DNA from: Brenneria alni | GTDB lineage: Bacteria; Pseudomonadota; Gammaproteobacteria; Enterobacterales; Enterobacteriaceae | DNA: 64,000 nt | Assembly (NCBI RefSeq): GCF_003666245.1 | Contig: NZ_MJLZ01000019.1 | Span: 1 to 64,000, forward strand | Direction of reading: 5' to 3' | Part shown: positions 8,286-30,715 of the stretch, in pieces | Numbering within the stretch: the stretch's first letter is position 1 | Layout of the letters: each line of letters opens with the position of its first letter | Notes under the pieces: model-generated | Database searches by the model: none | What the model saw: the letters and a program-made list of their open reading frames with translations, nothing else | What the model was told of the DNA's origin: nothing | Program-made: the position numbers and the translations under genes

Positions 8286-8988
8286 GATGATTAACCTCCT
8301 CACCGAAATATTTACCGTGCTGCAAACGAATAATGCGATCGGCAAATTTTCCCAGTTCAGGATTGTGCGTCACCATTACAATGGTGCGGCCCTGATGGTG
8401 TAAGCCTTTCAGCAGATCCAGTACCCGCTGTTCATTTTCTTCATCCAGATTGCCGGTCGGTTCATCGGCAAAGATGACCGGCGGCTCGTTCACCAGCGCA
8501 CGGGCAATACACACCCGCTGCTGCTCACCGCCGGAAAGCTGGCTGGGTAAATGGTCGATGCGGTGTTCCAGCCCCACTTGTTCCAGTACCCGCTTTGCGG
8601 CGGTTTCATCCACGATACTGTGATAATGCTGGGCCAGCATGATGTTTTCCAATGCAGTCAAAAAGGGGATCAGGTGGAATTGCTGGAACACCAGCCCGAT
8701 TTTATCCGCCCGGAATTTTCGCCGCCCTTCCTCATCCAGCGCTGCGGCATCAATACCATCCAGCAAAACCTGACCCTCACTGACCGTATCCAGACAGGTG
8801 AGGATATTCATCAGGGTGGTTTTGCCCGATCCCGATGCCCCCATAATGGCCACAAACTCGCCACGGGCAATGCGAATATTAATATTCTCCAGCGCGGTAA
8901 CCTGTCCAAAGCGTTTATATAGCCGACGCGTTTCAATCACCGCTTCTGGTGTCTGCCCCGCGCCCTGAATATTTATTGATGAGGACAT
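8272..8988 (-). CDS. ABC transporter ATP-binding protein of fet iron locus (MacB/LolD type)
   Basis: 238 residues from ATG 8988 ([19 protein letters not shown]), with AGGAG upstream; the frame remains open to 9183 but that part lies in the permease gene. Domain landmarks: Walker [11 protein letters not shown]-loop [15 protein letters not shown], signature [15 protein letters not shown], Walker [13 protein letters not shown] and MVTHNPELG. The TGNLD form is typical of the LolD/MacB/FtsE group, which powers mechanotransmission rather than import. It pairs with the two FtsX/MacB-like permeases encoded just upstream (8991-11409). Matching ATPase genes sit beside P19 in Campylobacter and beside fetMP in E. 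coli. Its exact role in iron uptake is not established. Confidence 0.9.
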
Positions 8989-8990
8989 CG

Positions 8991-11409: not shown

Positions 11410-11411
11410 AA

Positions 11412-12809: not shown

Positions 12810-12919
12810 GACGCACACTCAGGCGAGAAAGCTCACGCCCCTGATGGCGATATTGACAGTATTACCGACAGAGGCGTGAACATTACCGCGATGATAAAAC
12901 AATCATCACGGACAGGGGA

Positions 12920-13447
12920 TCACTTGATGCCGACGTATTTAAAATCAAAGCTGACATCAAACGGTTTCCACCAGCGGCCAACACCGGTTTCACTGTCGGT
13001 ATGACGGTGCATCCCGGCTTTGGAAGGCGGGTCGATATGGTAGGTGACCTTATAGTTGCCCACGCCCATCATTTTGATGTTTGCGCCATAGTGCGGGCCA
13101 TCGCTTGCGACCATCGGCATAAAATTTCCTTCCTGCTTGGCGCCGGTATCGGTGTTGATCAGGGTGTAGGCGATAGTCAGATTCGGCATCCACTCACCGG
13201 CGCCAAATCCGTTTTTGTTACCTTCAACCGCGTGAATATCCGCTTCCAGATGGATATCCGATTTTGCCGCAGGCAGCCCCATGCCACGGGGTTCCATGTC
13301 GATCGGTTGCAGATAAACCGCAGCGATCTCCAGCTCATTGATGGTCACTGGTTCACCAGCCGGATACTCTTCAAACGCAAACACTGCCGGCACGGTGAAA
13401 ATGCCAGTGATTACCGCCCCAGCGATCAGACTTTTTTGCATATTCAT
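12920..13447 (-). CDS. fetP: P19-family periplasmic iron-binding protein FetP
   Basis: 175 residues from ATG 13447 (MNMQKSLIAGAVITGIFT), chosen for GAGG nine bases upstream; the frame is open to 13549 but that extends into fetM. A signal peptide ends near VPAVFAFEEYPAG. The mature part has the P19/Tp34 landmarks: MEPRGMGLPAAKSDIHLEADIHA (Met, His and acidic copper/iron ligands), YTLINTDTG, and a C-terminal MHRHTDSETGVGRWWKPF. FetP is a dimeric periplasmic protein binding copper and iron that supports FetM-dependent iron uptake at low iron, as reported for uropathogenic E. coli and Campylobacter P19. It lies just after fetM in the same operon. Confidence 0.93.
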   Translation of the reverse strand: MNMQKSLIAGAVITGIFTVPAVFAFEEYPAGEPVTINELEIAAVYLQPIDMEPRGMGLPAAKSDIHLEADIHAVEGNKNGFGAGEWMPNLTIAYTLINTDTGAKQEGNFMPMVASDGPHYGANIKMMGVGNYKVTYHIDPPSKAGMHRHTDSETGVGRWWKPFDVSFDFKYVGIK

Positions 13448-13515
13448 CAAACCCATCCTCGTATCATCAATGTAAAGACAATTTCTCGTTTTAGCGCTTT
13501 TCACTGCTTCCAATA

Positions 13516-15426
13516 TCAGATCGCCGAAGCTCTGCGACGCATGATCCAAAACGCTGCCAAGGCGGCGACTAACAATATCCCTTGCGGTATTAATGTCTCC
13601 ACATAAGGGTAAATACCCAACCCGCTGATTTCGGGTACGCCGGTCAGCAATGTCGGTTCAAACAATTTGCCTTCAATCAGTTCAAGCACCCCTTTACCGG
13701 CAAAGACAAACGCCATCAGATACATGAAACAGCCGGTAAACATAAAGAAAGGCTTAAGCGGAAGTTTAACCACAGTGAAACGCATGATCAGGTAGGCAAT
13801 AATCAGAATTACGCATCCGATGCCAAACCCCGCCAGAATGGAAAGATGACCGGCCAGGTTGTTCGCATCACCCACCAGCGCGTAGTAGAAAAGTACCGTT
13901 TCCGCCCCTTCCCGGTAAACCGCCAGAAAACTGGTCAGCCATAGTCCCACCATCGAACCGCTGCTCAAAGAATGGGACAATTTGCCTTCCAGATAGGCTT
14001 TCCAGTGCCGGGCTTCCACTTTTGACAGCAGCCAGTAGCTCATAAAGAACAGCATCACCACGGCAATCAGCATGGTAATGCCTTCCAGCAGTTCACGGCT
14101 GGCGCCGGAGTTGGTAAACAGTAATTGGAAAATAACGGCGGTAACGACGCTGCATAACAGCGCGACATACACCGACTGCCGGATGAGCGGTAGCTTATCG
14201 TGGTGATTGTTTTTCACCAGATAGGCGACAATCGCCGCCACAATCAGTAACGCTTCCAGACCTTCACGCACGATAATAAGCAGGCTATATATCAACAGGC
14301 TCCAGTGTGTCTCATTGCCCTCACCCAGCATGGTGGTGGCATTCATCAGATCCTGTTTCAACGCTTCGGCCTGAATCTGCAATTGTTCAACCGGTTGCCC
14401 GGCATTCATCAGGCTGACCAGACGGGTAAAATACCCTTCCAGCTTCGATTTGAACGCCGCATCACGGGAGCCGACTTTATTTTCCATCCCGGTGGCTTCA
14501 AACAGATCAAAGTAAGTGTCCTGCACGGCGATTATCGCCGGTTTGACCTGACCCTGCCGATACGTTTCTATTGCAGCAAGAATGGCCTGATTAATATCGT
14601 CAGATATTTTTGCCCAGTTAGCGTCCGGCACGTCATTGGCGCTGATTGGGTTATCACCTGCTGGCGTTGCCGTAACCGGCTGGGTGTCACGCGTGGTAGG
14701 CAACCCCGGCAACAGCTCTTCAATATCCTGCAATAGGGTTGTCACGCGATAAGCTACTTCGCTCATCTGATCAGGCTGGTTCGCCAAAGCGATCAGCGCA
14801 GAGAATTGTTGATTAATCGCGGCAGCCTGCTGCGAGGAGCGATTTTGCCGCACGGACATTTCCATCTCGGAATTTTTAAAACCCTGATAGTGCGCCTGCT
14901 GCACGCTTTGGCTGGCTTTTTTATAATCGCCGGACTGATATTCACTCACCGCCTGCGCCAGTTGGTCATCAATAATTTTAAAACTTTGCTGCCAGTACAG
15001 CGCAATCTCGTCATTGCCATAAGCGCCATGCTGCTCCTGCGCCACCAGCTTATGGCCGTCTGATAATGTGGGCAGAACGGCGTTCAGTTCCCCTTTCAGC
15101 CAGGACACTTTCGCCTGCACATCAGCCAGCGGTTTCCCTTCACCGATCATGCGCCGGATTTCACCGAAAGTTGCTTCCAATTGATAGCTTTTTTGCGCGG
15201 AGATATTGATGCGAATGGGGCCTTCAAGATTTTCGAATACCTCGAAATAGGCCATCTGTACTTCAGTACGGGCTTCATCCGGCTTCTGCTGCTCATACAA
15301 TTGAGCCGTTTTATCCAGTCTGGATTCGATATCCTGGATGAAAGCGGCGTAATCGGTCGCGGCTAAAACCAGAGAACTACTGACTAGCCAACACAACGAA
15401 AAGAAAATTTTTTGCCAGATAGACAT
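13516..15426 (-). CDS. fetM: FTR1-family iron permease FetM
   Basis: 636 residues. A signal peptide (MSIWQKIFFSLCWLVSSSLVLA) leads a ~330-residue periplasmic region containing repeated helical units (residues ~24-160 and ~260-360, each with IESRLDKTAQLYEQ- or INQAILAAIETYRQ-like starts and AYFEVFE/TYFDLFE motifs). The C-terminal ~250 residues hold seven helices with the two FTR1 iron-path motifs IIVREGLEALLIV and VYREGAETVLFYY (REGLE and REGAE). FTR1 permeases move iron across the inner membrane, Fe(III)-coupled in yeast; in bacteria they work with P19. A Fur box and FNR box lie immediately upstream. Length suits the FetM/Cj1658 type rather than the shorter EfeU. Confidence 0.93.
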   Translation of the reverse strand: MSIWQKIFFSLCWLVSSSLVLAATDYAAFIQDIESRLDKTAQLYEQQKPDEARTEVQMAYFEVFENLEGPIRINISAQKSYQLEATFGEIRRMIGEGKPLADVQAKVSWLKGELNAVLPTLSDGHKLVAQEQHGAYGNDEIALYWQQSFKIIDDQLAQAVSEYQSGDYKKASQSVQQAHYQGFKNSEMEMSVRQNRSSQQAAAINQQFSALIALANQPDQMSEVAYRVTTLLQDIEELLPGLPTTRDTQPVTATPAGDNPISANDVPDANWAKISDDINQAILAAIETYRQGQVKPAIIAVQDTYFDLFEATGMENKVGSRDAAFKSKLEGYFTRLVSLMNAGQPVEQLQIQAEALKQDLMNATTMLGEGNETHWSLLIYSLLIIVREGLEALLIVAAIVAYLVKNNHHDKLPLIRQSVYVALLCSVVTAVIFQLLFTNSGASRELLEGITMLIAVVMLFFMSYWLLSKVEARHWKAYLEGKLSHSLSSGSMVGLWLTSFLAVYREGAETVLFYYALVGDANNLAGHLSILAGFGIGCVILIIAYLIMRFTVVKLPLKPFFMFTGCFMYLMAFVFAGKGVLELIEGKLFEPTLLTGVPEISGLGIYPYVETLIPQGILLVAALAAFWIMRRRASAI

Positions 15427-15446
15427 AAACGAAGTGCAGCATTAAT

Positions 15447-15465
15447 GATATTTATTCTTATTATC
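15447..15465 (-). promoter_or_regulatory. Fur box overlapping fetM -10 element
   Basis: On the minus strand the sequence is GATAATAAGAATAAATATC, which matches the 19-base Fur consensus GATAATGATAATCATTATC at 15 positions. It starts 21 bases upstream of the fetM ATG. Its first six bases, GATAAT (15465-15460), also fit a -10 element, so Fur binding would block RNA polymerase when iron is sufficient. Confidence 0.75.
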
Positions 15466-15486
15466 ACCGTGATGAGCAGATATGTC

Positions 15487-15500
15487 TTGATTTACATCAC
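15487..15500 (-). promoter_or_regulatory. FNR box upstream of fetM
   Basis: TTGATTTACATCAC on the plus strand matches the FNR consensus TTGATnnnnATCAA at 9 of 10 fixed bases. Its centre lies about 41 bases upstream of the start site predicted from the GATAAT -10 element, the class II activator position. This predicts anaerobic activation of the fet operon. Confidence 0.65.
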
Positions 15501-15510
15501 GGAAAAAGAG

Positions 15511-15780
15511 TTATTGGCGCAAAAAAGATGTAACATCTTGTTCCACCTCTTCCATTTGCCGTAACGCATCGAGCGTGGCATGAGCTTCTTCTTCATCCAA
15601 ACGGCTCATGGCAAAGCCAACATGAACCAATATCCAACAGCCGATCAGCTGCTTACTGTCCACCCCATCCGTGACCAGCGCAATGTTCACCTCGCGCCGG
15701 ACGCCGCAGACATCGACCCATGCAAGTTGCCGCTCGGCAGAGGCCAGCTCAATAATCTTTCCCGGAATGCCCAGACACAT
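15511..15780 (-). CDS. hypC: Hydrogenase maturation chaperone HypC
   Basis: 89 residues from ATG 15780, beginning MCLGIPGKIIELASAER, the invariant HypC/HybG/HupF opening in which Cys2 binds the Fe(CN)2CO precursor and the large-subunit precursor. The WVDVCGVRREVNIALV and LIGCWILVHVGFAMSRLDEEEAHATLDAL segments complete the family pattern. HypC works with HypD in the cytoplasm to build the active-site iron and hand it to the hydrogenase large subunit. The C-terminus EVEQDVTSFLRQ is HypC-like rather than HybG-like. It is divergent from hyfA, is not beside the other hyp genes, and has its own sigma-54 promoter at 15819-15834, so it is tuned to the hydrogenase in this window. Confidence 0.93.
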   Translation of the reverse strand: MCLGIPGKIIELASAERQLAWVDVCGVRREVNIALVTDGVDSKQLIGCWILVHVGFAMSRLDEEEAHATLDALRQMEEVEQDVTSFLRQ

Positions 15781-15818
15781 AGTGACTCTTCGCGTATATT
15801 TAACCAGTAACGATGTTA

Positions 15819-15834
15819 TGCAATTTTTATGCCA
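15819..15834 (-). promoter_or_regulatory. Sigma-54 (-24/-12) promoter of hypC
   Basis: The minus strand reads TGGCATAAAAATTGCA from 15834 to 15819, matching TGGCAyrN4TTGCW with exact GG-to-GC spacing. Transcription should start near 15808, about 28 bases before the hypC ATG. Confidence 0.75.
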
Positions 15835-15967
15835 AAATAAAAAAATCAAACGCAATAATATCACCAACGCCGGGGCAAACTGAAGTTTCTTTACATTAAC
15901 ATCTATTAAATTTACATAATTCGCCTGTTTTTCATCCACAAAAATTCCGGTTTTGCGTTTTCTTTGC

Positions 15968-16020
15968 TGTCGTCAAAAGTGTCGACTCGCTCTGGATACC
16001 TACTGTCGACACTAATGTCG
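15968..16020. promoter_or_regulatory. Two paired TGTCG repeats, probable FhlA/HyfR enhancer shared by hypC and hyfA
   Basis: TGTCG occurs at 15968, 15980, 16004 and 16016. Within each pair the copies are 12 bases apart (TGTCGTCAAAAGTGTCGAC and TGTCGACACTAATGTCGAG) and the pairs are 36 bases apart. The array lies about 135 bases from the hypC -24 element and 87 bases from the hyfA -24 element, a normal distance for a sigma-54 activator. Attribution to FhlA or HyfR is inference from the gene set. Confidence 0.6.
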
Positions 16021-16106
16021 AGCACCACGGCGTCACCAGCATTTTCGATAAGTCCTTTCTGCTCAATCCTTTATCTCACGCGGTCTGCCATCCGGATCTT
16101 ATGACG

Positions 16107-16122
16107 TGGCACGAAATATGCT
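16107..16122 (+). promoter_or_regulatory. Sigma-54 (-24/-12) promoter of hyf operon
   Basis: TGGCACGAAATATGCT matches TGGCACGN4TTGCT except for one base, with correct GG-GC spacing. The start site would be near 16133, about 33 bases before hyfA. Confidence 0.8.
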
Positions 16123-16165
16123 TTACGGAGCCAACCTTAGCAGAATCACCCCGGAGGGTATGGCT

Positions 16166-16792
16166 ATGAACCGCTTCGTCATTGCGGAGCCTAAACGCTG
16201 TATCGGATGCAATACCTGCATGGCGGCCTGTACGCAGGTACACCGCCGTCAGGGATTGCAGACGCATCCGCGGCTGACGGTGGAGCGCGACATCACCGGC
16301 ACCGCGCCCGTGTTATGCCGACATTGTGAAGATGCGCCTTGCGCCAGGGTCTGTCCGGTCAATGCCATTACCCATCAGGATCAGGCGGTGGTATTAAACG
16401 AAAACACCTGCATCGGCTGCAAGCTGTGCGCCATTGCCTGTCCCTTTGGTGCAATTACACCATCAGGCAGTAAGCCGTTGGCCATCCCGGAAACCTTTCG
16501 CCAGCATATTCCTTTATCCAGGCTCTCTGATGTGCCGGTCAGCATGTCCTCCATCAACCCTTTCCTGTCCTGGAATGCCGGGGTACGCAGTGTGGCCGTG
16601 AAGTGCGATTTGTGTGCCTTTCAGGATCAGGGGCCGGAATGTGTTCGCGTTTGCCCGACAAAAGCCCTGTTGATTATCGACGATCGACAGCTCGAACGCG
16701 CGGCTGCCGTAAAGCGCCTACACGCCATGACGTGGCCTGCTGGCGATAACTCTTTCCCCCTCGCCGAGACCGATCGGGAGCATAAATTATGA
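16166..16792 (+). CDS. hyfA: Hydrogenase-4 polyferredoxin subunit HyfA
   Basis: 208 residues from ATG 16166 (MNRFVIAEPKRCIGCNTC); the GGAGGG ribosome site at 16153-16158 is seven bases upstream, while the ATG at 16160 is too close to it. Four [4Fe-4S] motifs are visible: Cys12/15/18/22, Cys51/54/59/63, Cys82/85/88/92, and KCDLC...CVRVC further on. HyfA is a cytoplasmic electron carrier of the formate hydrogenlyase-2 complex, linking formate dehydrogenase to the hydrogenase module. It is the first gene of an eleven-gene operon and overlaps hyfB by four bases (ATGA). It shares its N-terminal pattern with HydN in the same window. Confidence 0.93.
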   Translation: MNRFVIAEPKRCIGCNTCMAACTQVHRRQGLQTHPRLTVERDITGTAPVLCRHCEDAPCARVCPVNAITHQDQAVVLNENTCIGCKLCAIACPFGAITPSGSKPLAIPETFRQHIPLSRLSDVPVSMSSINPFLSWNAGVRSVAVKCDLCAFQDQGPECVRVCPTKALLIIDDRQLERAAAVKRLHAMTWPAGDNSFPLAETDREHKL

Positions 16793-18807
16793 TGACGTCA
16801 CTGGAATGGTTGGCATGGGCGCTGACGCTTTATTCGGTTGGCGCATTACTGTCGTTGTGTCTGTCCCGGTTTGAGTCGCTGGCTATTCTGTTGAGCGGTA
16901 TCAGCGCCGCCCTCGGCGGACTGTGCGGCATTGCCGCCGCCCTGCCGGTATTACTCAACGGTCAGCGGCTGACCGCCACGATTGAAGGGCCATTTGCCGC
17001 CTTTGCCCATTTAACCCTGCGGATGGATGCGCTGGCCGCCTTTATGGTACTGGTCATTTCACTGCTGGTGGTGGTTACCTCACTCTACTCGCTGGCTTAT
17101 TTACAGGAATATCGCGGGCGCGCCGGGGCGATGGGGTTCTTTATGAACCTGTTTATCGCCTCTATGGTGGCGCTGGTGGTCACCGATAACGCTTTCTATT
17201 TCATTATTCTCTTTGAAGTGATGTCGCTCAGTTCCTATTTCCTGGTGATTTCCGATCAGGATGAAGAGGCGATTAATGCCGGGCTGCTTTACTTTTTAAT
17301 CGCCCATGCCGGATCTGTGCTGATCATGATCGCTTTCTTTCTGCTATACCGCTACAGCAACAGCCTCGACTTCGCCGATTTCCGACAGGCGGCCCTCTCT
17401 GCGCCGCAGGCGTCCACGGTGTTCCTGCTGGCTTTCTTTGGTTTTGGCGCCAAAGCCGGGATGCTGCCGCTGCACGGCTGGCTGCCGCGCGCGCACCCGG
17501 CCGCACCGTCCCACGCCTCGGCATTAATGTCCGGCGTGATGGTGAAAATCGGTATCTTCGGCATCATCAAAGTGGGGATCGACTTGCTGGGCGCCGCTGA
17601 AGCCTGGTGGGGCGTGGTGGTGCTGGCGTTCGGCGCTGTTTCGTCGGTTCTAGGCGTCCTCTATGCGCTGGCTGAACACGATCTCAAACGTTTACTGGCT
17701 TACCATACCGTTGAAAATATCGGCATCATCCTGATGGGCGTGGGTGTCGGGATGATCGGCATGGCTACCCATCACCCGCTGCTGGCGGTACTGGGCCTGC
17801 TGGGCGGGCTGTATCACCTGCTGAATCATGCCATCTTTAAAGGATTACTGTTTCTTGGCGCCGGTGCGGTGATTTACCGTCTGCACACCAAAGATATGGA
17901 GAAGATGGGGGGCCTCGCACGTTTGATGCCTTATACCGCGCTGGCTTTTCTGATCGGCTGTATGGCCATTTCCGCCCTGCCGCCGCTAAACGGTTTTGTC
18001 AGCGAATGGTTTACCTACCAGTCGCTGTTTACCCTCAGCCACGAGGGCGGCTTTTCCCTTCGTCTTGTTGCGCCAATCGCCATCGTCATGCTGGCGATTA
18101 CCGGCGCGCTGGCGGCAATGTGCTTCGTTAAGGTCTATGGGATTAGCTTCTCTGGCGCGCCGCGCAGCGAGAAAGCCGCACAGGCGCGGGAAGTTCCCTG
18201 GCCGATGACCTCCGCCATGCTGCTGCTGGCGCTGTTATGTGTGGTGCTTGGCGTAGGAGCCAGCGAGGTTTCCCCGATAATTACCCAGGTTGCCGTCAGC
18301 CTGACGGAAAGCGCCACGCCAGTCGTGGCGCACGGCATACTGGTCTTTCCCGGCAACCCCGGCCAAACCACGTTGTCTACGCCGTTGATTTTCATTCTGC
18401 TGCTGGCCTTGCCGGTCCTGCCGTTACTGCTTTATGTCGGCTGCAAAGGCGGTCGTCTGAATTTCCGTCAGCATGGTACGCCGTGGGCCTGCGGCTATGC
18501 CTATGAAGCCCGGATGGCGGCTTCCGCCGCCAGTTTTACCCAGCCGTTACGCGTGATGTTCGCCCCTTTGTACCGGATACGCAAAACACTGGATCCCGCC
18601 CCCATGATGCAAAACGCGCTGGAACAAACCACGCTGGCCGCCGGGCGGGCAGAACCGTTCTGGGATACGCGCCTCGTCATGCCGCTGGTAAACGTGGTTC
18701 AGCGCGCCAGCCGGGCAGTTCAATGGATTCAGCATGGCGACTTCCGGCTCTACTGTCTGTATGTGGTGGCCGCCCTGGTGATCCTGCTGCTGGCGACGAT
18801 GGTCTGA
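16789..18807 (+). CDS. hyfB: Hydrogenase-4 membrane subunit HyfB
   Basis: 672 residues with about 15-16 membrane helices, of the Nuo-L/Mrp antiporter-like family. The conserved antiporter core lies at about residues 110-420, with Lys in FGFGAKAGMLPLHGWLPRAHPAAPSHASALMSG and EHDLKRLLAYHTVENIG. The last helix near residue 650 follows an amphipathic segment. In formate hydrogenlyase-2, HyfB is one of three antiporter-like proteins thought to move protons or other ions, as in respiratory Complex I. It overlaps hyfA and is 7 bases from hyfC. Length equals that of E. coli HyfB. Confidence 0.93.
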   Translation: MMTSLEWLAWALTLYSVGALLSLCLSRFESLAILLSGISAALGGLCGIAAALPVLLNGQRLTATIEGPFAAFAHLTLRMDALAAFMVLVISLLVVVTSLYSLAYLQEYRGRAGAMGFFMNLFIASMVALVVTDNAFYFIILFEVMSLSSYFLVISDQDEEAINAGLLYFLIAHAGSVLIMIAFFLLYRYSNSLDFADFRQAALSAPQASTVFLLAFFGFGAKAGMLPLHGWLPRAHPAAPSHASALMSGVMVKIGIFGIIKVGIDLLGAAEAWWGVVVLAFGAVSSVLGVLYALAEHDLKRLLAYHTVENIGIILMGVGVGMIGMATHHPLLAVLGLLGGLYHLLNHAIFKGLLFLGAGAVIYRLHTKDMEKMGGLARLMPYTALAFLIGCMAISALPPLNGFVSEWFTYQSLFTLSHEGGFSLRLVAPIAIVMLAITGALAAMCFVKVYGISFSGAPRSEKAAQAREVPWPMTSAMLLLALLCVVLGVGASEVSPIITQVAVSLTESATPVVAHGILVFPGNPGQTTLSTPLIFILLLALPVLPLLLYVGCKGGRLNFRQHGTPWACGYAYEARMAASAASFTQPLRVMFAPLYRIRKTLDPAPMMQNALEQTTLAAGRAEPFWDTRLVMPLVNVVQRASRAVQWIQHGDFRLYCLYVVAALVILLLATMV

Positions 18808-18814
18808 GGAGAAG

Positions 18815-19798
18815 ATGATGATCAGTTCAATCACAGAAACCCTGGTTACAGCAGGCGTAACCCCGATCTCCACCCTGATTGTCTGTGCCTTCCTTCAGGC
18901 ATTGTGCTTGCTGGCTATTGCCCCGCTGATGTCGGGTATGGCGCGGGTTATCCGCGCCAAAATGCATTCACGGCGAGGACCGGGATTGTTGCAGGACTAT
19001 CGTGACATTTTCAAACTACTCAAGCGTCAGGATGTATCGCCCCAATACGCAGGCGGAGTTTTTCGCCTGATGCCTTACATCCTGATCGGTACGATGCTGC
19101 TGGTCGCCATGACGTTGCCTATCGTGACGTGGGTATCACCGTTCGGCTCAGGTGGCGATGTTATTACCCTGCTCTATCTGTTTGCCCTGTTCCGTTTCTT
19201 CTTTTCTCTGGCAGGTCTGGACTCCGGCAGTTCTTTTGCCGGCATCGGGGCCAGCCGCGAGCTAACGCTTGGCATTCTGGTGGAACCGATCCTGATTTTG
19301 GCTTTGCTGGTTGTCGCACTGATTGCTGGCTCCACCAACATCGGCAATATCAGCACTATGCTGGCAAGCCGTCCCTGGCTATCCCCTACCGCCACCCTGA
19401 TGGCACTACTGGCCTGCGCTTTCGCCGCTTTTATCGAAATGGGAAAAATTCCGTTCGACGTGGCGGAAGCCGAACAGGAATTACAGGAAGGCCCGTTGAC
19501 GGAATATTCCGGGGCCGGACTGGCGCTGGTGAAATGGGGCATCAGTCTGAAACAGGTGGTGGTTGCCGCCCTGTTTCTTTCTATCTTCATCCCGTTTGGT
19601 AAGGCTGAAACCTTTACGCTGGCGGCGCTGGCATGGGGATCGCTCGCGTTTCTCATCAAGCTGACCGGGGTGTTTTTTGTCGCCGCCTTGATTGAGAACA
19701 GCCTGGCGCGCGGGCGCTTTCTGCTGACCGGGCATGTTACCTGGTTAGGCTTCGGCGTTGCCGCGCTGGCGTTCGTTTTTTATCTTACCGGTCTATAA
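18815..19798 (+). CDS. hyfC: Hydrogenase-4 membrane subunit HyfC (NuoH-like)
   Basis: 327 residues, about eight helices. The family pattern is clear: IRAKMHSRRGPGLLQDYRDIFKLLKRQ after the first helix, FAGIGASRELTLGILVEPILIL, and the long EMGKIPFDVAEAEQELQEGPLTEYSGAGLALVKWG loop carrying the acidic residues of NuoH. HyfC anchors the hydrogenase catalytic subunits to the membrane and forms the start of the ion path. GAGGAGAAG precedes two possible ATG starts at 18815 and 18818. Confidence 0.93.
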   Translation: MMISSITETLVTAGVTPISTLIVCAFLQALCLLAIAPLMSGMARVIRAKMHSRRGPGLLQDYRDIFKLLKRQDVSPQYAGGVFRLMPYILIGTMLLVAMTLPIVTWVSPFGSGGDVITLLYLFALFRFFFSLAGLDSGSSFAGIGASRELTLGILVEPILILALLVVALIAGSTNIGNISTMLASRPWLSPTATLMALLACAFAAFIEMGKIPFDVAEAEQELQEGPLTEYSGAGLALVKWGISLKQVVVAALFLSIFIPFGKAETFTLAALAWGSLAFLIKLTGVFFVAALIENSLARGRFLLTGHVTWLGFGVAALAFVFYLTGL

Positions 19799-19814
19799 GG
19801 AGTAAGCATTCATC

Positions 19815-21269
19815 ATGGAGACGTTTACTACAGAGAATGTTGCCCTTGCGACCATCCTGTTGCCATTCATTGGCGCACTGTTGATCGCCATCCTGCCACA
19901 GCGGCAGGCTAAATGGTTTTGCTGCCTGTTTGCTCTACTGACGACACTCGGTATGGCATGGCTGGCGTATGACTATTTCGCTGGCGGTAAAAAGGACATG
20001 ACCTATACCTTATACCGCTATGGTCAGACCGAGCTGTTTGGGTTTCTGTTCGACAGAATCAGCCTGTTGATTGGTTTTGCCGTGGTATTCCTCGGCCTGT
20101 TGGTCAGCATCTATTCCACCGGTTACCTGACGTCAGGCAACCGGGAGCACCCGCATGAAGGCACTAACCGTTATTATGCCTTTCTGTTGGTGTTTATTGG
20201 CGCTATGGCCGGGTTAACACTGTCATCCACCTTGCTTGGACAACTGCTGTTTTTTGAAATTACCGGTGGCTGCTCGTGGGCATTAATCGGTTACTACCAG
20301 CAACCCAAGTCGTTGCGTTCAGCGCTGAAAGCCCTGCTGGTGACGCACATTGCCTCCATCGGGCTGTATCTGGCGGCGGCCTGGCTGTTTGTTAATACCG
20401 GTACGTTTGCCCTGAGTGCGCTGGCGCAGTTGAATACCGACGGTAAAATCATCGTGTTTGGCGGTATTCTGTTCGCCGCCTGGGGGAAATCAGCGCAAAT
20501 CCCCCTGCATATGTGGCTACCCGACGCAATGGAAGCGCCAACGCCGGTCAGCGCTTATCTGCACGCGGCCTCAATGGTGAAAGTCGGCGTCTATATATTC
20601 GCCAGGGCGATTTTGTCCGCCGATCGGGTGCCGCACATTATTGGCGCCGTCGGTCTGGTGATGGCGACCATCACGCTGGTTTATGGCTTTATCATGTATC
20701 TGCCGCAAAAAGACATGAAGCGCTTACTGGCCTACTCCACCATTACCCAGCTTTCCTATATCTTTTTTACCTTGTCGCTGGCGACGTTCGGCTCGCGTAT
20801 GGCGTTTGAAGCGGGTGTGGCTTACATCTTCAACCATGCTTTCGCCAAAAGCCTGTTTTTCCTGGTGGCTGGCGCACTCAGCTACAGTTGCGGAACCCGT
20901 ATGTTGCCAAAACTTAAAGGTATGATGCGGAAAATGCCGCTGCTGGGCGTCGGATTCTGTGTCGCCGCGCTGGCCATTACCGGCGTACCGCCGTTTAACG
21001 GTTTCTTCAGCAAGTTCCCACTGTTTGCCGCCGGGTTTGCGCTGTCGCGGGAATACGTCTGGCTACTGCCTCTGCTTATCATCACGCTGATTGAGTCGGT
21101 CGCCAGTTTTGCCTGGTTCCTCTACTGGTTTGGCCGCACCGTGCCGGGAGCGCCATCCGAAGAAATTGCTGCCGCCACGCCGGTTCCCTGGGCAATGCAG
21201 GGGGTGCTGATCGTGCTGATCGTCATGTCGGTATGTTCAAGCGTGATCGCTTCCATCTGGCTGAACTGA
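19815..21269 (+). CDS. hyfD: Hydrogenase-4 membrane subunit HyfD (antiporter-like)
   Basis: 484 residues, about 14 helices, of the NuoM/N antiporter family. Landmarks: FFEITGGCSWALIGYYQQP (conserved Glu), FAAWGKSAQIPLHMWLPDAMEAPTPVSAYLHAASMVKVG (conserved Lys and the discontinuous helix), and [23 protein letters not shown]. HyfD has no counterpart in the smaller hydrogenase-3 complex, so together with HyfE and HyfF it marks this as hydrogenase-4. GGAG lies in the short gap after hyfC. Confidence 0.93.
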   Translation: METFTTENVALATILLPFIGALLIAILPQRQAKWFCCLFALLTTLGMAWLAYDYFAGGKKDMTYTLYRYGQTELFGFLFDRISLLIGFAVVFLGLLVSIYSTGYLTSGNREHPHEGTNRYYAFLLVFIGAMAGLTLSSTLLGQLLFFEITGGCSWALIGYYQQPKSLRSALKALLVTHIASIGLYLAAAWLFVNTGTFALSALAQLNTDGKIIVFGGILFAAWGKSAQIPLHMWLPDAMEAPTPVSAYLHAASMVKVGVYIFARAILSADRVPHIIGAVGLVMATITLVYGFIMYLPQKDMKRLLAYSTITQLSYIFFTLSLATFGSRMAFEAGVAYIFNHAFAKSLFFLVAGALSYSCGTRMLPKLKGMMRKMPLLGVGFCVAALAITGVPPFNGFFSKFPLFAAGFALSREYVWLLPLLIITLIESVASFAWFLYWFGRTVPGAPSEEIAAATPVPWAMQGVLIVLIVMSVCSSVIASIWLN

Positions 21270-21281
21270 GGATTATTAACA

Positions 21282-21932
21282 ATGACTGGTTCCCTTATCA
21301 TTAATAACCTGGCCGGGTTGCTGATTATTACTTCCCTGCTGGTGATCGCCGCCAGACGCCCAACGGTTTCAGCCTGGCTATATGCCTTGCAGTCTCTGGT
21401 TCTGGTGCTGATTTTTGTCTCGCTGGCCGATCTGCTACAGGCCCCTCAGCTCTATATATGGTCGCTGAGTGCGTTCATTACCAAAGTCATACTGGTTCCC
21501 CTGATCATGTACCGGGCGTTTCGCAAACTGGACGATCCGCAGGCTGATGGCGGCGTGGTCAGCCCGGTAGTCATCATGCTGCTGGCAACGCTCATTGTGG
21601 TGCTGTGCTACTTCGTGGTGGAACCGGTTAAATTACCGATGGTCAGCACCCTGAAACCGGCGCTGGCGGTGTCGCTGGGGCACTTTATGATCGGTCTGCT
21701 GTGCATTGTCACCCAGCGCAATATTCTCAAACAGGTATTCGGCTATTGCCTGATGGAAAACGGTGCGCACCTCACACTGGCGCTGCTGGCGAACCGGGCG
21801 CCCGAATTAGTGGAAATCGGTATTGCGACCGATGCAATTTTCGCGGTGATTGTCATGGCATTAATGGCCCGCAAAATCTACCGCACGCTCAACACGCTGG
21901 ATGTGCAACAACTGACCGCGCTGAAAGGGTGA
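21282..21932 (+). CDS. hyfE: Hydrogenase-4 membrane subunit HyfE (NuoK-like)
   Basis: 216 residues with about seven helices. The C-terminal half resembles NuoK/MrpC, with conserved Glu in [41 protein letters not shown]. It begins [27 protein letters not shown]. Its length equals E. coli HyfE. It sits 12 bases after hyfD and 5 bases before hyfF, which indicates tight co-translation. It belongs to the membrane arm; work on the Pectobacterium homologue reported that most membrane-arm genes are dispensable for hydrogen output. Confidence 0.93.
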
Positions 21933-21937
21933 ATAAC

Positions 21938-23569
21938 ATGACCAATACTGACCTGCTTCTCACCCTGCTGGGTACGCCGCTCATTACCGCGCTGCTTGCT
22001 TTCGCATGTCGGTTCGCCGCCAGTCAGGCCCGCATGCTGGTGAGCATCATCCATCTGCTGGGGATCACTGTTCTGCTGATTGTTTCACTGTCGCTGGTCT
22101 GGCTGGTGTACCAGAACGGGGAAATTCTGTCCGTCCATAATTGGCTGCATCTCGACAGCCTCAGCGCTCTGTTTCTGGCGATCCTCGGCATTATCGGCTT
22201 TATTACCGGGCTTTACTCCCTCGGTTATATGCGTCACGAAGTGAATAGCGGCGAAATCACGGTTAAAACACTGTGTTACTACTATGGTTTCTTCCATCTT
22301 TTTCTGTTCACCATGCTGCTGGTCATCACCAGTAACAATCTGATTTTAATGTGGGCCGCCATTGAAGCCACCACGCTGAGTTCCGCTTTTTTGGTCGGGC
22401 TATACGGGCAGCGCTCTTCGCTGGAAGCCGCCTGGAAATACATCATTATCTGTACGGTAGGGGTGGCGTTTGGACTATATGGCACCGTACTGGTGTATGC
22501 CAACGCGGCCAGCGTCATGGTTGAGCCAGGAAACGCCATCTTCTGGACGGAAGTGCTGAAACACGCGGACGAACTGGACAGCACGTTGATGCATCTGGCG
22601 TTTATCTTCATCATCATTGGCTTTGGCACTAAAACCGGTCTGTTTCCGATGCACGCCTGGCTGCCGGACGCGCACAGCGAAGCCCCAAGCCCCACCAGCG
22701 CGCTGTTATCCGCAGTATTGCTGAACTGCGCCCTGTTGGTCATCGTGCGCTATTACATCATCGTCAGCGCTGCCATCGGTTCCGAATTTCCCCGCACGTT
22801 ACTGCTGGTTTTCGGCATGATGTCCGTGGCGGTGGCCGCTTTCCTGATCCTGGTTCAGCGCGATATGAAACGCCTGCTGGCCTATTCCAGCGTCGAAAAT
22901 ATGGGTCTGATTGCCGTAGCGCTGGGGATTGGCGGGCCGTTGGGCATTCTCGCCGCCTTGCTGCATACCCTGAATCACAGCCTGGCCAAAACGCTGTTGT
23001 TCTGTGGTTCCGGTAACGTCCTGCTGAAATACGGTACACGCGATATGGATGCGGTGAAAGGGATCATGCGTGTCACCCCGCTCACCGGGGCGTTGCTGGC
23101 TGGCGGCGCGCTGGCGCTGGGCGGGATGCCGCCTTTCAATATTTTTCTTAGTGAATTCATGACCGTGAGCGCCGGAATCAGCGCCGGGTATTTGTGGCTG
23201 GTGATTAGCTTGCTGATACTGCTGACCATTGTGCTGGCCGGGTTAGTCAGAATGGTTGCCGGTACGGTGCTCGGCAGTAGCCCGGAGGCGGTAAGCAAAG
23301 GGGAACTGGGCGTTATGACCACCGCGCCGATGGTTGTGCTGCTGCTCCTGATGCTGGTGATGGGGACACATATTCCACAGCCGGTCATCCGGCTGCTGGA
23401 AAACGCCACCACTATCGTTCAAAACCCGGAAACCGACGACGCATCCCTGGATCGACGACGCCAGATGTCCTGGCTGCGCCCCGAATCCGTGACCGTCAAA
23501 AACCCCGTATCACCCATTGCTGAACGCTCAGTGTTAACCCCTTTCCGTCAGGAGATGCACCGTGATTAA
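21938..23569 (+). CDS. hyfF: Hydrogenase-4 membrane subunit HyfF (antiporter-like)
   Basis: Start set at 21938 ([20 protein letters not shown]), giving 543 residues; the frame is open back to 21701 but that part lies inside hyfE. About 13-14 helices, with antiporter core motifs [63 protein letters not shown] and [27 protein letters not shown]. It is slightly longer than the E. coli protein because of a polar C-terminal tail ([19 protein letters not shown] onward). The final 8 bases overlap hyfG. Confidence 0.92.
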
Positions 23570-25301
23570 TGAACTCCCTGTTTCCAGCCAGGTATCCCAT
23601 GTGGACAAACTCGGCACCGGTTATGCCGCCCAGATCAGAAAAAAGTTCCCGGCGGCCATTCTGGAAGAGGAGTGGCAGACAGCGAATCAGCTCACCCTGA
23701 CCGTCAAACTGAACACACTGCCAGAGGTCGTTGAATGCCTTTACTACCAACAGGGGGGATGGTTGTCAGTACTCTTTGGTAATGATGAACGTTCACTAAA
23801 TGGCTATTTCGCCATTTACTACGTGCTGTCAATGGAAGAGGGAGAAAAGTGCTGGGTGATTGTGAAAGCGCTGGTCAACCCGGATAACCCGGAGTTTCCC
23901 TCGGTCACGCCCCGCGTACCGGCCGCCGTCTGGGGCGAGCGTGAAGTGCGCGATATGTATGGGCTGATCCCGGTCGGCTTGCCCGACGAGCGGCGGCTGG
24001 TATTGCCGGACGACTGGCCGGACGATCTTTATCCGCTGCGTAAAGACGCTATGGATTATCGCCAGCGCCCTGCCCCCACCCGTGATGAAGAGTCTTACTC
24101 GTTCATCAGCGAAGCCAGCGGCGAGGCCCGCATCGTACCGATTGGGCCGTTACACATCACCTCTGATGAGCCGGGGCATTTCCGCCTGTTCGTAGACGGA
24201 GAACAGATTATTGATGCTGACTACCGACTGTTCTATGTGCATCGTGGCATGGAAAAGCTGGCGGAAACGCGTATGGGTTATAACGAAGTCACCTTCCTGT
24301 CTGACCGGGTGTGCGGCATCTGCGGCTTTACCCACAGCGTTGCGTATACCTCATCCATTGAAAATGCGTTAGGGATTGTCGTACCGCCGCGAGCGCACAG
24401 TATCCGCAGCCTGTTGCTGGAAGTGGAAAGGCTGCACAGCCATTTGTTGAATCTGGGGCTTTCCAGCCATTTCGCCGGTTTCGATACCGGGTTTATGCAG
24501 TTCTTTCGTATCCGTGAGAAGTCGATGACTATCGCTGAGATCCTGACCGGCGCCCGTAAAACCTATGGGCTGAACCTGATTGGCGGCATCCGCCGCGATA
24601 TTCTGAAAGACGACCGGTTAAAAACCATCAAGCTGATTCGGGAGATGCGCACCGACATTGCGCAGCTTTCCGACATGCTGCTCAACACCCCCAATATGCT
24701 ACAGCGAACCCAGGGGATTGGTATTCTCGACAAGCAAGTCGCCCGCGATTACAGCCCGGTCGGCCCGATGATCCGCGCCAGCGGCTTCAAGCGGGATATG
24801 CGCATCGATCATCCTTATGCGGGTTATCTGAACCTGCCGATGGAACTACATCATCTGGATGCGGGCGACGTCTATTCCCGCGTACTGGTTCGAGTACGCG
24901 AAGTGTTCACCTCAATGGCGATGATTGAATACGGTCTGGACAACCTGCCGGAAGGCCCGCTGCTTAACGAAGATTTCACTTATCAACCGCACAAGTTTGC
25001 GCTGGGCTTTGCGGAAGCGCCACGCGGTGAAGACATTCACTGGAGCATGACTGGCGACAACCAGAAACTGTTCCGCTGGCGTTGTCGCGCCGCCACCTAC
25101 GCCAATTGGCCGGTGTTGCGCTATATGCTGCGCGGCAACACCGTTTCCGATGCCCCGCTGATTATCGGCAGTCTGGACCCCTGCTACTCCTGTACCGACC
25201 GGGTTACGCTTATTGATGTGCGCAAACAGAAAATCACCACGGTGCCTTATAAAGAAATGGAACGTTACGGCCTGGAACGTACATATTCGCCGCTCAAATA
25301 G
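23562..25301 (+). CDS. hyfG: Hydrogenase-4 [NiFe] large subunit HyfG
   Basis: 579 residues, a NuoC-NuoD fusion as in HycE. Residues ~1-170 are the NuoC-like part ([12 protein letters not shown]); ~185-547 are the NuoD-like catalytic part. Nickel ligands are visible in [13 protein letters not shown] (Cys251, Cys254) and DPCYSCTDR (Cys541, Cys544). After Arg547 a 32-residue tail ([20 protein letters not shown] and on to RTYSPLK) remains, the size of the C-terminal peptide that HycI removes from E. coli HycE after nickel insertion. The hycI gene is four genes downstream. The enzyme reduces protons to H2 on the cytoplasmic side of the complex. Confidence 0.95.
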
Positions 25302-25312
25302 GGGGATGAATC

Positions 25313-25888
25313 ATGTTGAAACTGTTTAAAACCATCCTGAAAGCAGGCAGCCACTGTACGGTGCAATATCCGTTTAAACCGCTGGAGGTATCGGCAGGGT
25401 TTCGCGGCAAACCACAATACGACGCCACGCAATGTATTGCCTGCGCCGCCTGCACGATGGTATGCCCGGCCAATGCGCTGACGATGGAAACCGATGTCAC
25501 CGGCGGCACCCGAACCTGGCAGCTCTTCCTCGGACGCTGTATCTTCTGCGGGCGCTGCGAGGAAGTCTGCCCGACACGCGCTATCGTGCTGTCACAGGAG
25601 TTTGAAATGGCGGTCAGCAGTAAGGCAGACCTTTACCAGCGAGCCACCTTTACCTTGCTGGACTGCCATGTTTGTCACCGCCCTTTTGCCCCGCAAAAAG
25701 AGGTGGACTATGCCATGAAGCTGTTAATGCAGTCTGGTTTGTCCGAAGAAACGGTTGAATCACAACGACCTCATTTTGAAACCTGCCCGGAATGTAAACG
25801 GAAGCAGAACATGAACCACCAGGGCAATGTGATGTTGAGCCAGTATATTTCCCCGCCTTCCACTTCTGTTAAAGGGAGCAAGCCATGA
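25313..25888 (+). CDS. hyfH: Hydrogenase-4 ferredoxin-like subunit HyfH (NuoI-like)
   Basis: 191 residues with two adjacent [4Fe-4S] motifs, [16 protein letters not shown] (about residues 40-55) and [16 protein letters not shown] (about 78-93), typical of NuoI/HycF. Further Cys pairs occur at DCHVCHRPF and CPECKRKQN, also seen in HycF/HyfH, perhaps a structural metal site. It transfers electrons between HyfA-type carriers and the small subunit HyfI. Start ATG at 25313 has GGGG nearby, and the 3' end overlaps hyfI by four bases. Confidence 0.93.
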
Positions 25889-26676
25889 GCACCCTGCCTG
25901 CTGGCGCCGATCACTACCGGCCCACGCCGATTGTATTGGATGAACCGGCGCAAAAACTCAAACAAACGCTGCTGAAAGATATCAAACGTTCGGCTTACGT
26001 TTACCGCGTCGACTGCGGCGGCTGCAACGGCTGTGAAATAGAAATTTTTGCCGCCATTACCCCGCTGTTCGACGCCGAACGCTTTGGTATCAAGGTGGTG
26101 GCCTCACCTCGTCATGCCGATATTTTATTGTTCACCGGGGCGGTTACCCGCGCCATGCGAACACCGGCGCTACGCGCCTACCAATCCGCCCCCGACCCGA
26201 AAATCTGCATCTCTTACGGCGCCTGCGGCTGCGGCGGCGGGATCTTCCACGATCTGTATTGCGTCTGGGGCGGCAGCGATACCATTGTACCGATAGACGT
26301 TTATATTCCCGGCTGTCCGCCGACTCCCGCCGCCACCCTCTATGGCTTTGCCGTCGCGCTTGGCCTTCTGGAGCAGAAACTGCACAGCGGCGATCATCAG
26401 CAGACAGAGCATGAAAAGGCCGCTTTGATTCATCCTGACCTCCCGTTGGATCTACGTGTTCTGCTGGAACGGGAAGCCCGGCGCATGGCGGGATATCGTC
26501 AGGGGAGGGAAATCAGCGACGCCTTTTTGGCGCGACTGGAAAATCAAACGTTGGACGGTCTGGATCAGCGTATTGCCGACTGGCTGCAACAGCATAACGA
26601 TCCGCGTTTGAATGAGATTGTCGGGCGGTTACAGCAGATCTATCTCGCGCTGTTGAATGGGGAAAGATATCGATGA
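25885..26676 (+). CDS. hyfI: Hydrogenase-4 small subunit HyfI (NuoB-like)
   Basis: 263 residues. The single proximal [4Fe-4S] cluster ligands lie in [14 protein letters not shown] (about residues 48-61), [14 protein letters not shown] and [15 protein letters not shown], as in HycG/NuoB. There is no twin-arginine signal, as expected for a cytoplasm-facing group 4 hydrogenase. After residue ~165 an additional ~95-residue charged C-terminal region ([20 protein letters not shown] onward) is present, as in E. coli HyfI and absent from the shorter NuoB. GGGAG precedes the ATG, which overlaps the hyfH stop. Confidence 0.93.
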
Positions 26677-27077
26677 GCGCACAGGTGATTTTCTATGCCC
26701 TGAGCCAGAAATTTCTCGACACCAAAGATAAGGTGCCGGAGCAGGCTCAACAGGTGATGTATTACTCATTGGCGATTGGTCACCACGTTGGCGTTATCGA
26801 CTGCCTGAAGCGGGTGTTGGTCTGCCCGCAGGCAGACTATCAACGTTGGATCGGGCAATTGGCAGAAGGTGAGGCAAAACGCAAAATGGCAGGCTTACTG
26901 AAATTTGGCGAGATCACCATTGACAGCGGTCATACCCAGTTACTGGGGCGTGCTTTTGGTTCATTGCCTGCCGGGCAGGATAACTATCCTGACTGGACCA
27001 AAACCCTACTGGACTATCTGGCGGCCATTGAACAGGAAACGGCGCTCTACTTAATGGTGAAACGAGTTGATGACTGA
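26673..27077 (+). CDS. hyfJ: Formate hydrogenlyase accessory protein HyfJ (HycH family)
   Basis: 134 residues with HycH/HyfJ family features: [42 protein letters not shown] at the N-terminus and [21 protein letters not shown] centrally. HycH is a small cytoplasmic protein required for assembly of active formate hydrogenlyase but not part of the final complex. The ATGA start overlaps hyfI, and the 3' end overlaps hycI by 11 bases. Confidence 0.9.
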
Positions 27078-27564
27078 GCAAATCGAGCATAACGGAAAGG
27101 TTGTCGCTAATGAAAATATAGTGCTGACCGTCGGCAATAGCATGATGGGCGATGATGGCGCCGGGCCGCGGCTGGCCGAACATATGACGCAAAACCCGGT
27201 CGCTGGCTGGTCAGTGATTGATGGCGGCGCCATTCCCGAAAACGCAGCCCACAGGTTGCGCACCCTGCGGCCTAAAAGACTATTGGTAGTGGATGCCGCC
27301 GATATGGGTTTAGCGCCCGGCGAAATACGCATTGTTGATCCGCAACGGATTGCCGAAGACCTGTTGATGAACACCCATAATCTGCCGCTGAACTTTCTTA
27401 TCGAACAGTTGCAGCAAGATATTCCTGAGGTAATTTTTATCGGTATTCAGCCTGCGCTGGTGGCGTTCTATTACCCCCTCAGCGCGGAAGTCGAGCAGGC
27501 GGTGGATCTCATTCATCAGCGGCTGGCGGGCTGGCAGGGAAATGGCGGCTTTCAAAGGCTATAG
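27067..27564 (+). CDS. hycI: Hydrogenase maturation endopeptidase HycI
   Basis: 165 residues. The family signatures are LTVGNSMMGDDGAGPRLAEHM near residue 20 (with the nickel-binding Asp), VIDGGAIPENAAHRLR, and LVVDAADMGLAPGEIRI (second Asp). It recognises nickel in the immature large subunit and removes the C-terminal peptide; the likely target here is the HyfG 32-residue tail. In E. coli hycI closes the hyc operon and the hyf operon lacks its own copy, so its place after hyfJ makes this locus self-sufficient for that step. No hyfR or focB follows. The N-terminal ~15 residues are less conserved; an internal ATG is possible. Confidence 0.9.
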   Translation: MMTEQIEHNGKVVANENIVLTVGNSMMGDDGAGPRLAEHMTQNPVAGWSVIDGGAIPENAAHRLRTLRPKRLLVVDAADMGLAPGEIRIVDPQRIAEDLLMNTHNLPLNFLIEQLQQDIPEVIFIGIQPALVAFYYPLSAEVEQAVDLIHQRLAGWQGNGGFQRL

Positions 27565-30494: not shown

Positions 30495-30534
30495 TATCGT
30501 CAAATCTGCCGAAACCCCCTTTTCTCTGTCGTCA
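30495..30534. promoter_or_regulatory. TGTCG-type activator sites upstream of hydN
   Basis: TATCGTCAAATCTGCCGAA at 30495-30513 matches the hyf site TGTCGTCAAAAGTGTCGAC at 14 of 19 positions, keeping the 12-base half-site spacing. A further half-site TGTCGTCA lies at 30527-30534, about 90 bases from the -24 element, nearly the distance seen before hyfA. Confidence 0.5.
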
Positions 30535-30619: not shown

Positions 30620-30635
30620 TGGCATAAACCCTGCT
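30620..30635 (+). promoter_or_regulatory. Sigma-54 (-24/-12) promoter of hydN-fdhF
   Basis: TGGCATAAACCCTGCT fits TGGCAyrN4yTGCT with correct spacing. Transcription should begin near 30646, about 70 bases before hydN. Confidence 0.75.
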
Positions 30636-30715
30636 TTATCGGGAAGTGGTGTGTCATTTTTTAGCTACGTCGACACAACGGTTTTTTCACCTGAACCCAG
30701 GTCGGAGACGATGTC

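Follow-up and report, generated by a model that had tools for sequence, protein, structure and literature searches.

The closest described counterpart of the locus analysed here is the hycABCDEFGHI-hypABCDE region of Escherichia coli and Salmonella, where divergent -24/-12 promoters flank an FhlA-type site, with hydrogenase genes on one side and maturation genes on the other. Divergent NtrA (sigma-54)-dependent promoters are said to have been described for hyc-hyp of E. coli by Lutz and co-workers in 1990. Sigma-54 promoters require an activator, and activators of the FhlA type work through distance-tolerant enhancers. In E. coli, FhlA is activated by the formate of anaerobic fermentation (PMC11841067, available part of the text), and the scaffold that HypC forms with HypD passes Fe(CN)2CO on to the large subunit of the hydrogenase (PMC9002611, likewise in its available part). 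For Salmonella, the accessible text of PMC3844500 records sigma-54 binding at hycA and hypA and lists both operons under FhlA. Scored with a matrix of 186 sigma-54 promoters (PMC7658346, Table 2; maximum 21.4 bits), which underlies the sigma-54 scores given here, the 211-bp hycA-hypA interval of E. coli K-12 holds elements of 14.9 bits for hycA (minus strand) and 18.6 bits for hypA (plus strand), together with a site of 16.1 bits by an FhlA matrix. This matrix derives, according to the available part of the same paper, from 13 E. coli FhlA-dependent promoters and describes a 14-bp dyad with TGWCR/TGWCA half-sites around 4 bp (PMC7658346).

Other described loci share single parts of the arrangement. 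At hyfA of E. coli, GCGACACGGGTGTCGA lies upstream of a sigma-54 element that is weaker (12.0 bits) than the one found here, and there is no divergent gene, bcp preceding hyfA on the same strand. Work by Skibinski from 2002 is said to concern FhlA and HyfR at E. coli hyf. For hyf of Proteus mirabilis, the accessible text of PMC7658346 gives a sigma-54 element with predicted FhlA sites, and a promoter activity that is reduced in fhlA and rpoN mutants. ACGTCA-N4-TGTCGA lies upstream of that operon, but in Proteus loci no hypC diverges from hyf in the available upstream sequence of up to 3 kb. Loci of Dickeya and Prodigiosinella have a lone divergent hypC, both sigma-54 elements and one or two palindromes at up to one mismatch; their palindromes are 80 or 91 bp apart, or single, whereas those described below are 36 bp apart.

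The window, that is, the whole analysed stretch of 64,000 nucleotides from Brenneria alni, belongs to contig C19 of a 4.13-Mb genome. Its hypC-hyf region is a close variant of the E. coli arrangement, reduced to a single chaperone gene. The enzyme partner is hyf in Brenneria and hyc in E. coli hyc-hyp, and the maturation partner is hypC alone instead of hypABCDE(-fhlA). In contrast to E. coli, the fhlA gene of the window genome is found on contig C43, outside the hyp cluster (contig C63). The sites also differ, since the FhlA-matrix site of the E. coli hycA-hypA interval has another form, and that interval contains no TCGWCA-N4-TGWCGA, the palindrome of the Brenneria locus, even with two mismatches.

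The hypC-hyf locus and its two sigma-54 elements

The minus strand at 15511..15780 encodes an 89-aa [NiFe]-hydrogenase maturation chaperone of the HypC type (Pfam HupF_HypC, 4.4e-24), beside which hypA, hypB, hypD, hypE and hypF are absent. Its product scores 115.3 bits with the NCBIfam HybG model (cut-off 115), 90.3 bits with the HypC/HybG subfamily model TIGR00074 (cut-off 48) and 91.8 bits with the model for E. coli-type HypC (cut-off 136). On the plus strand, hyfA (16160..16792, with its ATG at 16160 or 16166), recognised from its translation as the 4Fe-4S protein of hydrogenase-4, is followed by hyfB from 16789 (hydrogenase 4 subunit B, 905 bits). By ORF order and NCBIfam matches, the hyf operon runs from hyfA to a HycI-type protease gene (16160..27564); the matches are to HyfB, NuoH-like, NuoB-like, HycH and HycI proteins, the intervening genes having been scanned in part. 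Two small ORFs beyond the operon, up to 28313, have no NCBIfam match.

Beyond hypC, on the same strand, lies an iron-uptake set (8272-15426) consisting of an FTR1 permease, a Fe2+ transport protein, an FtrD-like protein, two FtsX-type permeases and an ABC ATPase. The intergenic stretch of 84 bp that separates hypC from the FTR1 gene (15427-15510) carries an FNR-like box on the minus strand, GTGATGTAAATCAA, with GATAAT at -10 distance. This box recurs with a varying spacer in eight of nine Brenneria genomes, the ninth having GTGACG, and a stretch that by eye resembles a Fur box follows it. It is the FNR-like box nearest to the hypC-hyf interval, within which none was found at up to one mismatch.

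Near-consensus -24/-12 elements had been proposed for hypC and hyfA in the sequence-only reading, and both are borne out: TGGCATAAAAATTGCA at 15819..15834 on the minus strand scores 16.6 of 21.4 bits, and TGGCACGAAATATGCT at 16107..16122 on the plus strand 16.0 bits. Each has GG at -24, GC at -12 and the fixed spacing of TGGCAYR-N4-TTGCW. They are two of the three matches of at least 16 bits in the 64-kb window, and constitute its only divergent pair with at least 14 bits each and starts 50-500 bp apart. Matches to the plain consensus, with two mismatches allowed, show no enrichment, the window having 34 of them where 44.9 would be expected, so that the case is carried by pairing and conservation and not by the motif itself. 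As to conservation, both elements recur in all nine Brenneria genomes searched; in the eight congeners and genomes G022 and G030, they score 12.9-17.4 bits on the hypC side and 14.3-16.4 bits on the hyf side. Among the best 80 of 568 hyfA-like loci, 65 have a plus-strand element of at least 12 bits no more than 150 bp upstream of hyfA. RpoN itself is encoded on contig C3 (Sigma54_DBD, 1.1e-69). With sigma-54 transcription starting about 12 nt past the -12 GC, that of hypC would be expected to begin near 15808, which would leave a leader of about 28 nt, and that of hyf near 16133.

Two further features lie between the promoters. A direct repeat of TTTACAT, with copies 21 bp apart (15890..15919), separates the hypC promoter from the candidate enhancer sites. 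As a wider regulon motif this repeat was rejected, having one perfect copy in the genome and counts at control level with up to two mismatches; it corresponds to no recognised regulator site. Between the enhancer sites and the hyf promoter, an IHF-like core TCAA-N4-TTR is present on the plus strand (16063..16073), and such a core is found 104-105 bp before the hyfA start in six of nine Brenneria intervals; in the interval of the window only the core occurs, not the full IHF consensus.

Form and spread of the palindromic site

Four TGTCG copies in two pairs, noted in the sequence-only reading, are present between the promoters (starts at 15968, 15980, 16004 and 16016; 12 bp within pairs and 36 bp between them). 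As the repeating unit, however, TGTCG fails, because its left-hand copy is poorly conserved. The conserved unit, obtained by aligning ten hypC-hyf intervals (the long G030 interval being omitted) and inspecting eleven, is the 16-bp palindrome TCGWCA-N4-TGWCGA. In the window, it occurs as candidate enhancer site 1 (15970..15985, TCGTCA-AAAG-TGTCGA) and candidate enhancer site 2 (16006..16021, TCGACA-CTAA-TGTCGA), both perfect and with centres 36 bp apart; the interval has no further copy within one mismatch. A search of the eleven intervals that allowed up to one mismatch returned 19 palindromes, all of them perfect, and the site 1 sequence, TCGTCAAAARTGTCGA, is found in the hypC-hyf interval of nine out of nine Brenneria genomes.

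The left-hand TGTCG accompanies 6 of these 19 palindromes, two of the six being in the window. It was found at 15 of 76 sites at hyfA loci (13 of 70 outside Brenneria; best 80 of 568 loci) and at the hydN palindrome of one Brenneria genome in nine. Such counts start from the palindrome, and thus test the additional TG and not the palindrome itself. TGTCG-N12-TGTCG at up to two mismatches, a spacing other than that originally described, occurs 57 times in the window against 54.8 expected, which is chance level, and the exact spacing TGTCG-N7-TGTCG occurs 18 times genome-wide against 28 in the reversed control. Direct TGTCG repeats were rejected as the functional unit on account of these chance-level counts and the poor conservation.

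The perfect palindrome has only two copies in the 4.13-Mb genome, both in the hypC-hyf interval. Each Brenneria genome holds it in 2-6 places, compared with 0-4 in the reversed control; with counts this near the control, the motif alone is not specific, and it is its place that is telling. That place was followed, over the 400 bp upstream of hyfA, in the 80 best of 568 hyfA-like loci on genome contigs. They cannot count as independent, Yersinia, Proteus, Providencia and Morganella being over-represented. A perfect palindrome is found upstream of hyfA at 45 of the 80 loci and one within a single mismatch at 66, and at 65 the latter stands 50-220 bp upstream of a plus-strand sigma-54 element. 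Within the same set, the 4-bp spacer gives 45 loci while spacers of 0-3 and 5-8 bp give 0-1. Out of 359 half-site permutations searched without mismatches, only TCGACW (7 loci) and WCGTCA (6 loci), which overlap the true half-site, exceed one locus. Among the 14 loci lacking the palindrome in this selection, record names place 12 in the alpha- or beta-proteobacteria; the others are L127 (Serratia sp. H1w) and L174 (Necropsobacter).

A third palindrome of the window, TCGTCAAATCTGCCGA (30497..30512, one mismatch), precedes the hydN-fdhF sigma-54 element TGGCATAAACCCTGCT (30620..30635, plus strand, 14.8 bits) by 123 bp from start to start. Downstream of this element are a HydN-like gene (30716-31258; 245 bits, below the model cut-off of 260) and a gene for a molybdopterin oxidoreductase of the formate-dehydrogenase type (31298-33448). 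The latter is an uninterrupted ORF of 716 aa, and therefore has no in-frame TGA for selenocysteine. The same palindromic site is found in nine of nine Brenneria genomes and a hydN sigma-54 element of at least 12 bits in six; the other three elements, read by eye, are TGGCATAAAGCCTGCT at L196 and sequences ending in TGCC at L199 and L200. Within the hydN leader, 3' of the sigma-54 element (about 30668-30676), GTCGACA is present in all five Brenneria loci compared, and four of them have TGTCGACA.

Given its place upstream of hyfA (66 of the best 80 of 568 loci) and of hydN-fdhF (nine of nine Brenneria genomes), TCGWCA-N4-TGWCGA is taken, by context, as the hyf-type FhlA/HyfR site of the formate regulon. 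The E. coli FhlA matrix scores the two window sites at only 8.7 and 8.3 of 17.1 bits while agreeing with them in dyad layout, so the assignment to an FhlA/HyfR-type activator is made from context and not from the matrix. It draws as well on the E. coli K-12 hyfA site, which is one mismatch from the palindrome.

Activator, proposed sharing of sites and competing explanations

The activator gene had been placed outside the window, and this agrees with the genome: fhlA is encoded at L070:310-2490, whose product passes the FhlA model NF011958 with 850.7 bits (cut-off 830). Eight strong matches to enhancer-binding proteins are present in the genome, plus three weak ones, and one passes the FhlA cut-off. 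Others among the strong matches pass the cut-offs for GlrR, NifA, TyrR, NtrC and PspF, while L072 and L075 pass no NCBIfam cut-off. NifA was rejected as the activator of the locus, since the interval has no TGT-N10-ACA, the NifA-type site. The NifA gene (L069, contig C24 of genome G000; 694 bits, cut-off 529) indicates that nitrogen fixation genes may be present.

A single FhlA/HyfR-type site cluster flanked by two divergent sigma-54 promoters, as originally proposed, is conserved in related species: the arrangement is found in the window, in its eight congeners and in G022. In the window, the centre of site 2 is 94.5 bp from the hyf -24 GG, and the centre of site 1 is 144.5 bp from the hypC -24. 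In 15 of 17 intervals, the last palindrome stands 91.5-95.5 bp from the hyf -24 GG. The two exceptions, Brenneria salicis and Brenneria izbisi, have 106.5 and 107.5 bp; in both, the usual distance is regained through a palindrome with two mismatches that lies 12 bp nearer to hyf. Across the same 17 intervals, the hypC -24 lies anywhere between 104.5 and 1099.5 bp from the palindromes. The sites are thus anchored to hyf, and hypC could depend on them only if they act as a distance-tolerant enhancer.

The promoter on the hypC side follows the gene. In the best 80 of 568 hyfA loci, a minus-strand sigma-54 element lies no more than 600 bp from hyfA at 21 of the 26 loci where hypC diverges at a distance of up to 3 kb from hyfA (a few loci having less than 3 kb of upstream sequence) and at none of the 54 loci without a divergent hypC (Fisher 6.5e-15, a value inflated by relatedness). 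Among the exceptions, L105, L107 and L109 have the element farther out, near hypC; at L127, it lies beside hypA-hypC, and a hydN-like gene precedes the hyfA match; and L174 (Necropsobacter) has hypC divergent from hyfA with neither sigma-54 element nor palindrome. Conversely, at L108 the hyf promoter and a one-mismatch site are present, and no hypC diverges from hyfA within 3 kb. At L105 (labelled Serratia marcescens) and L107 (Symbiopectobacterium), enhancer and hypC promoter are separated by an ORF, of 283 or 299 aa; the L109 interval is of similar length. This ORF, at about -1200 to -300 relative to hyfA, offers a natural test of long-range activation. In genomes G002 and G007 (L045 and L046), the intervals are longer by 200-300 bp; the added sequence, which contains inverted stretches resembling repeats, lies exclusively on the hypC side of the enhancer.

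The preferred explanation, to which we give a probability of about 0.75, is that FhlA at the two palindromes drives both hyf and hypC, the interval being a two-way, formate-responsive control region of the FhlA regulon. When formate accumulates, FhlA would be the protein that binds 15970-15985 and 16006-16021. Probably by DNA looping, it would then, very likely, activate the sigma-54 polymerase at the hyf promoter, and from the same sites it would presumably also act on the other side, at the hypC promoter. In this way, the hyf operon would rise together with a chaperone of the type known for supplying the large subunit with Fe(CN)2CO.

The step to hypC is where an alternative may enter. The palindromes could be the enhancer of hyf alone, with a genuine sigma-54 promoter at hypC that is activated from elsewhere, be it by another enhancer-binding protein, through an unrecognised site such as the TTTACAT repeat, or by FhlA from solution. 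This would fit the nearly fixed spacing between sites and hyf, which has no equivalent on the hypC side, and it could call on the two activators, L072 and L075, that pass no NCBIfam cut-off. The TTTACAT repeat, too, would fit, lying some 80-110 bp upstream of where hypC transcription is expected to begin; with small variations it is kept in eight of nine Brenneria intervals (copies 20 bp apart in two). It is missing, however, from G004 and from two Dickeya intervals, all of which keep the hypC promoter, and a NifA-type site is absent from the interval. That the minus-strand promoter appears only where hypC is divergent also speaks against separate activation, as does the listing of both flanking operons under FhlA in Salmonella, in the accessible text of PMC3844500. 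Activation of hypC from elsewhere is accordingly regarded as unlikely.

A still less probable alternative would have hypC transcribed mainly from an anaerobic sigma-70 promoter of the FNR or ArcA type, its sigma-54 element being left over from a hypABC(D) operon that has been lost. The presence of hypABC(D) or hypA-hypC at this position in relatives does suggest gene loss, and there is an FNR-like box just downstream of hypC. But this box is placed for the next gene, a simple sigma-70 consensus scan of the minus strand of 15500-16300 found no promoter for hypC, and the sigma-54 element is kept in nine of nine Brenneria genomes and in other genera. Least credible of all is the original version in which the activator binds four direct TGTCG repeats in two pairs. 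The copies and their spacing are real, and chains of half-sites 12 bp apart do occur, as overlapping palindromes in G004 and Brenneria roseae and as a perfect plus a two-mismatch palindrome in B. salicis and B. izbisi; the scarcity of the left-hand TGTCG at interval palindromes, hyfA loci and hydN sites weighs against it.

Copies of hypC and proposed reduction of the maturation operon

All nine Brenneria genomes encode two HypC-type chaperones and one HypD. The second hypC of the window genome belongs to a hyb-hypABCDEF cluster on contig C63. This cluster has no palindrome within one mismatch, one with two mismatches inside it, and three weak sigma-54 matches (12.1-13.1 bits), none of which lies in the 324 bp upstream of hybO. 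With the other Hyp proteins (A, B, D, E and F) coming from this cluster without the palindrome, it is only the HypC-type chaperone whose production would be coupled to that of Hyf, not maturation as a whole. By profile, the lone HypC resembles HybG more than E. coli-type HypC, and the hyb-linked copy is nearer still to HybG (136.5 bits, against 87.9 for HypC). A tree built from 39 HypC rows, each about 90 aa long, groups the nine hyb-linked copies of Brenneria in a single clade (100/98) that excludes the hyf-linked ones. Support for joining this clade to E. coli HybG is weak (81/73), and with 17 of the 36 inner branches open, the lone hypC is not claimed as an ortholog of either HypC or HybG of E. 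coli.

The divergent partner was compared at 16 loci, with HypA, HypB and HypD judged by eye from ORF starts. It is hypA-hypB-hypC-hypD at L151 (labelled Martelella), in Acerihabitans, in an Enterobacterales bin and in Gilliamella, at least hypA-hypB-hypC in Sodalis, hypA-hypC in two Yersinia and in Serratia H1w, and hypC alone in Brenneria, Dickeya, Prodigiosinella and the Symbiopectobacterium group. Loci with a longer operon (L124, L126, L151 and L153) likewise have two palindromes 36 bp apart. The series suggests that the Brenneria region arose by reduction of an ancestral hyf/hypABCD(E) region. Beside hypA-hypC at L127, an ORF of 688 aa with a start that by eye is of the FhlA/HyfR type lies at about -3858 to -1792 relative to the hyfA match.

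Two named Dickeya genomes (G060 and G061) have two HypC copies each, and expression has been recorded in Dickeya dadantii 3937. According to the available part of PMC3349551 (Table 1), anaerobic growth raises hypC (ABF-0020729) 21.1-fold, hyfA-hyfJ 10.9-32.2-fold, hypB 5.8-fold and hypD 3.6-fold. In the same accessible text, the number of ABF-0020729 does not fall between those of hypB and hypD, as might be expected of the lone gene, but neither does it fall beside that of hyfA, and a figure footnote gives the ortholog as 'located elsewhere' (PMC3349551). Since it is ambiguous which copy this is, the D. dadantii expression is not counted as support.

The lone hypC might, tentatively, be a formate-gated switch: raised together with Hyf, its product would shift the single HypD from Hyb, the uptake enzyme, to Hyf, the hydrogen-producing one. 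Taking Hyf rather than Hyb as the client of the lone HypC is conjecture, and the profile of this HypC, being nearer to HybG, does not help the client argument. If true, such a switch would explain why a client-specific chaperone has been kept beside the enhancer along the series hypABC(D), hypA-hypC, hypC.

The basic divergent design was already published for E. coli in 1990, and the Dickeya gene order may well be in print through the cluster drawing of D. dadantii (PMC3349551, Figure 3). A search of the open-licence literature found no naming of a lone hypC beside hyf or of the region in Brenneria, and neither the palindrome definition, nor its spread, nor the reduction to hypC alone was found there. 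What the region adds is a testable definition, TCGWCA-N4-TGWCGA, of the hyf-type formate-regulon site, to which the published FhlA matrix of E. coli gives low scores. In addition, it offers natural spacing variants, with sites 36, 12 or 80-108 bp apart and the second promoter 104 to 1100 bp away, for examining how a single bacterial enhancer may serve two promoters. With the partner reduced to hypC, finally, the question arises whether the choice of hydrogenase for maturation is made through the level of the chaperone only.
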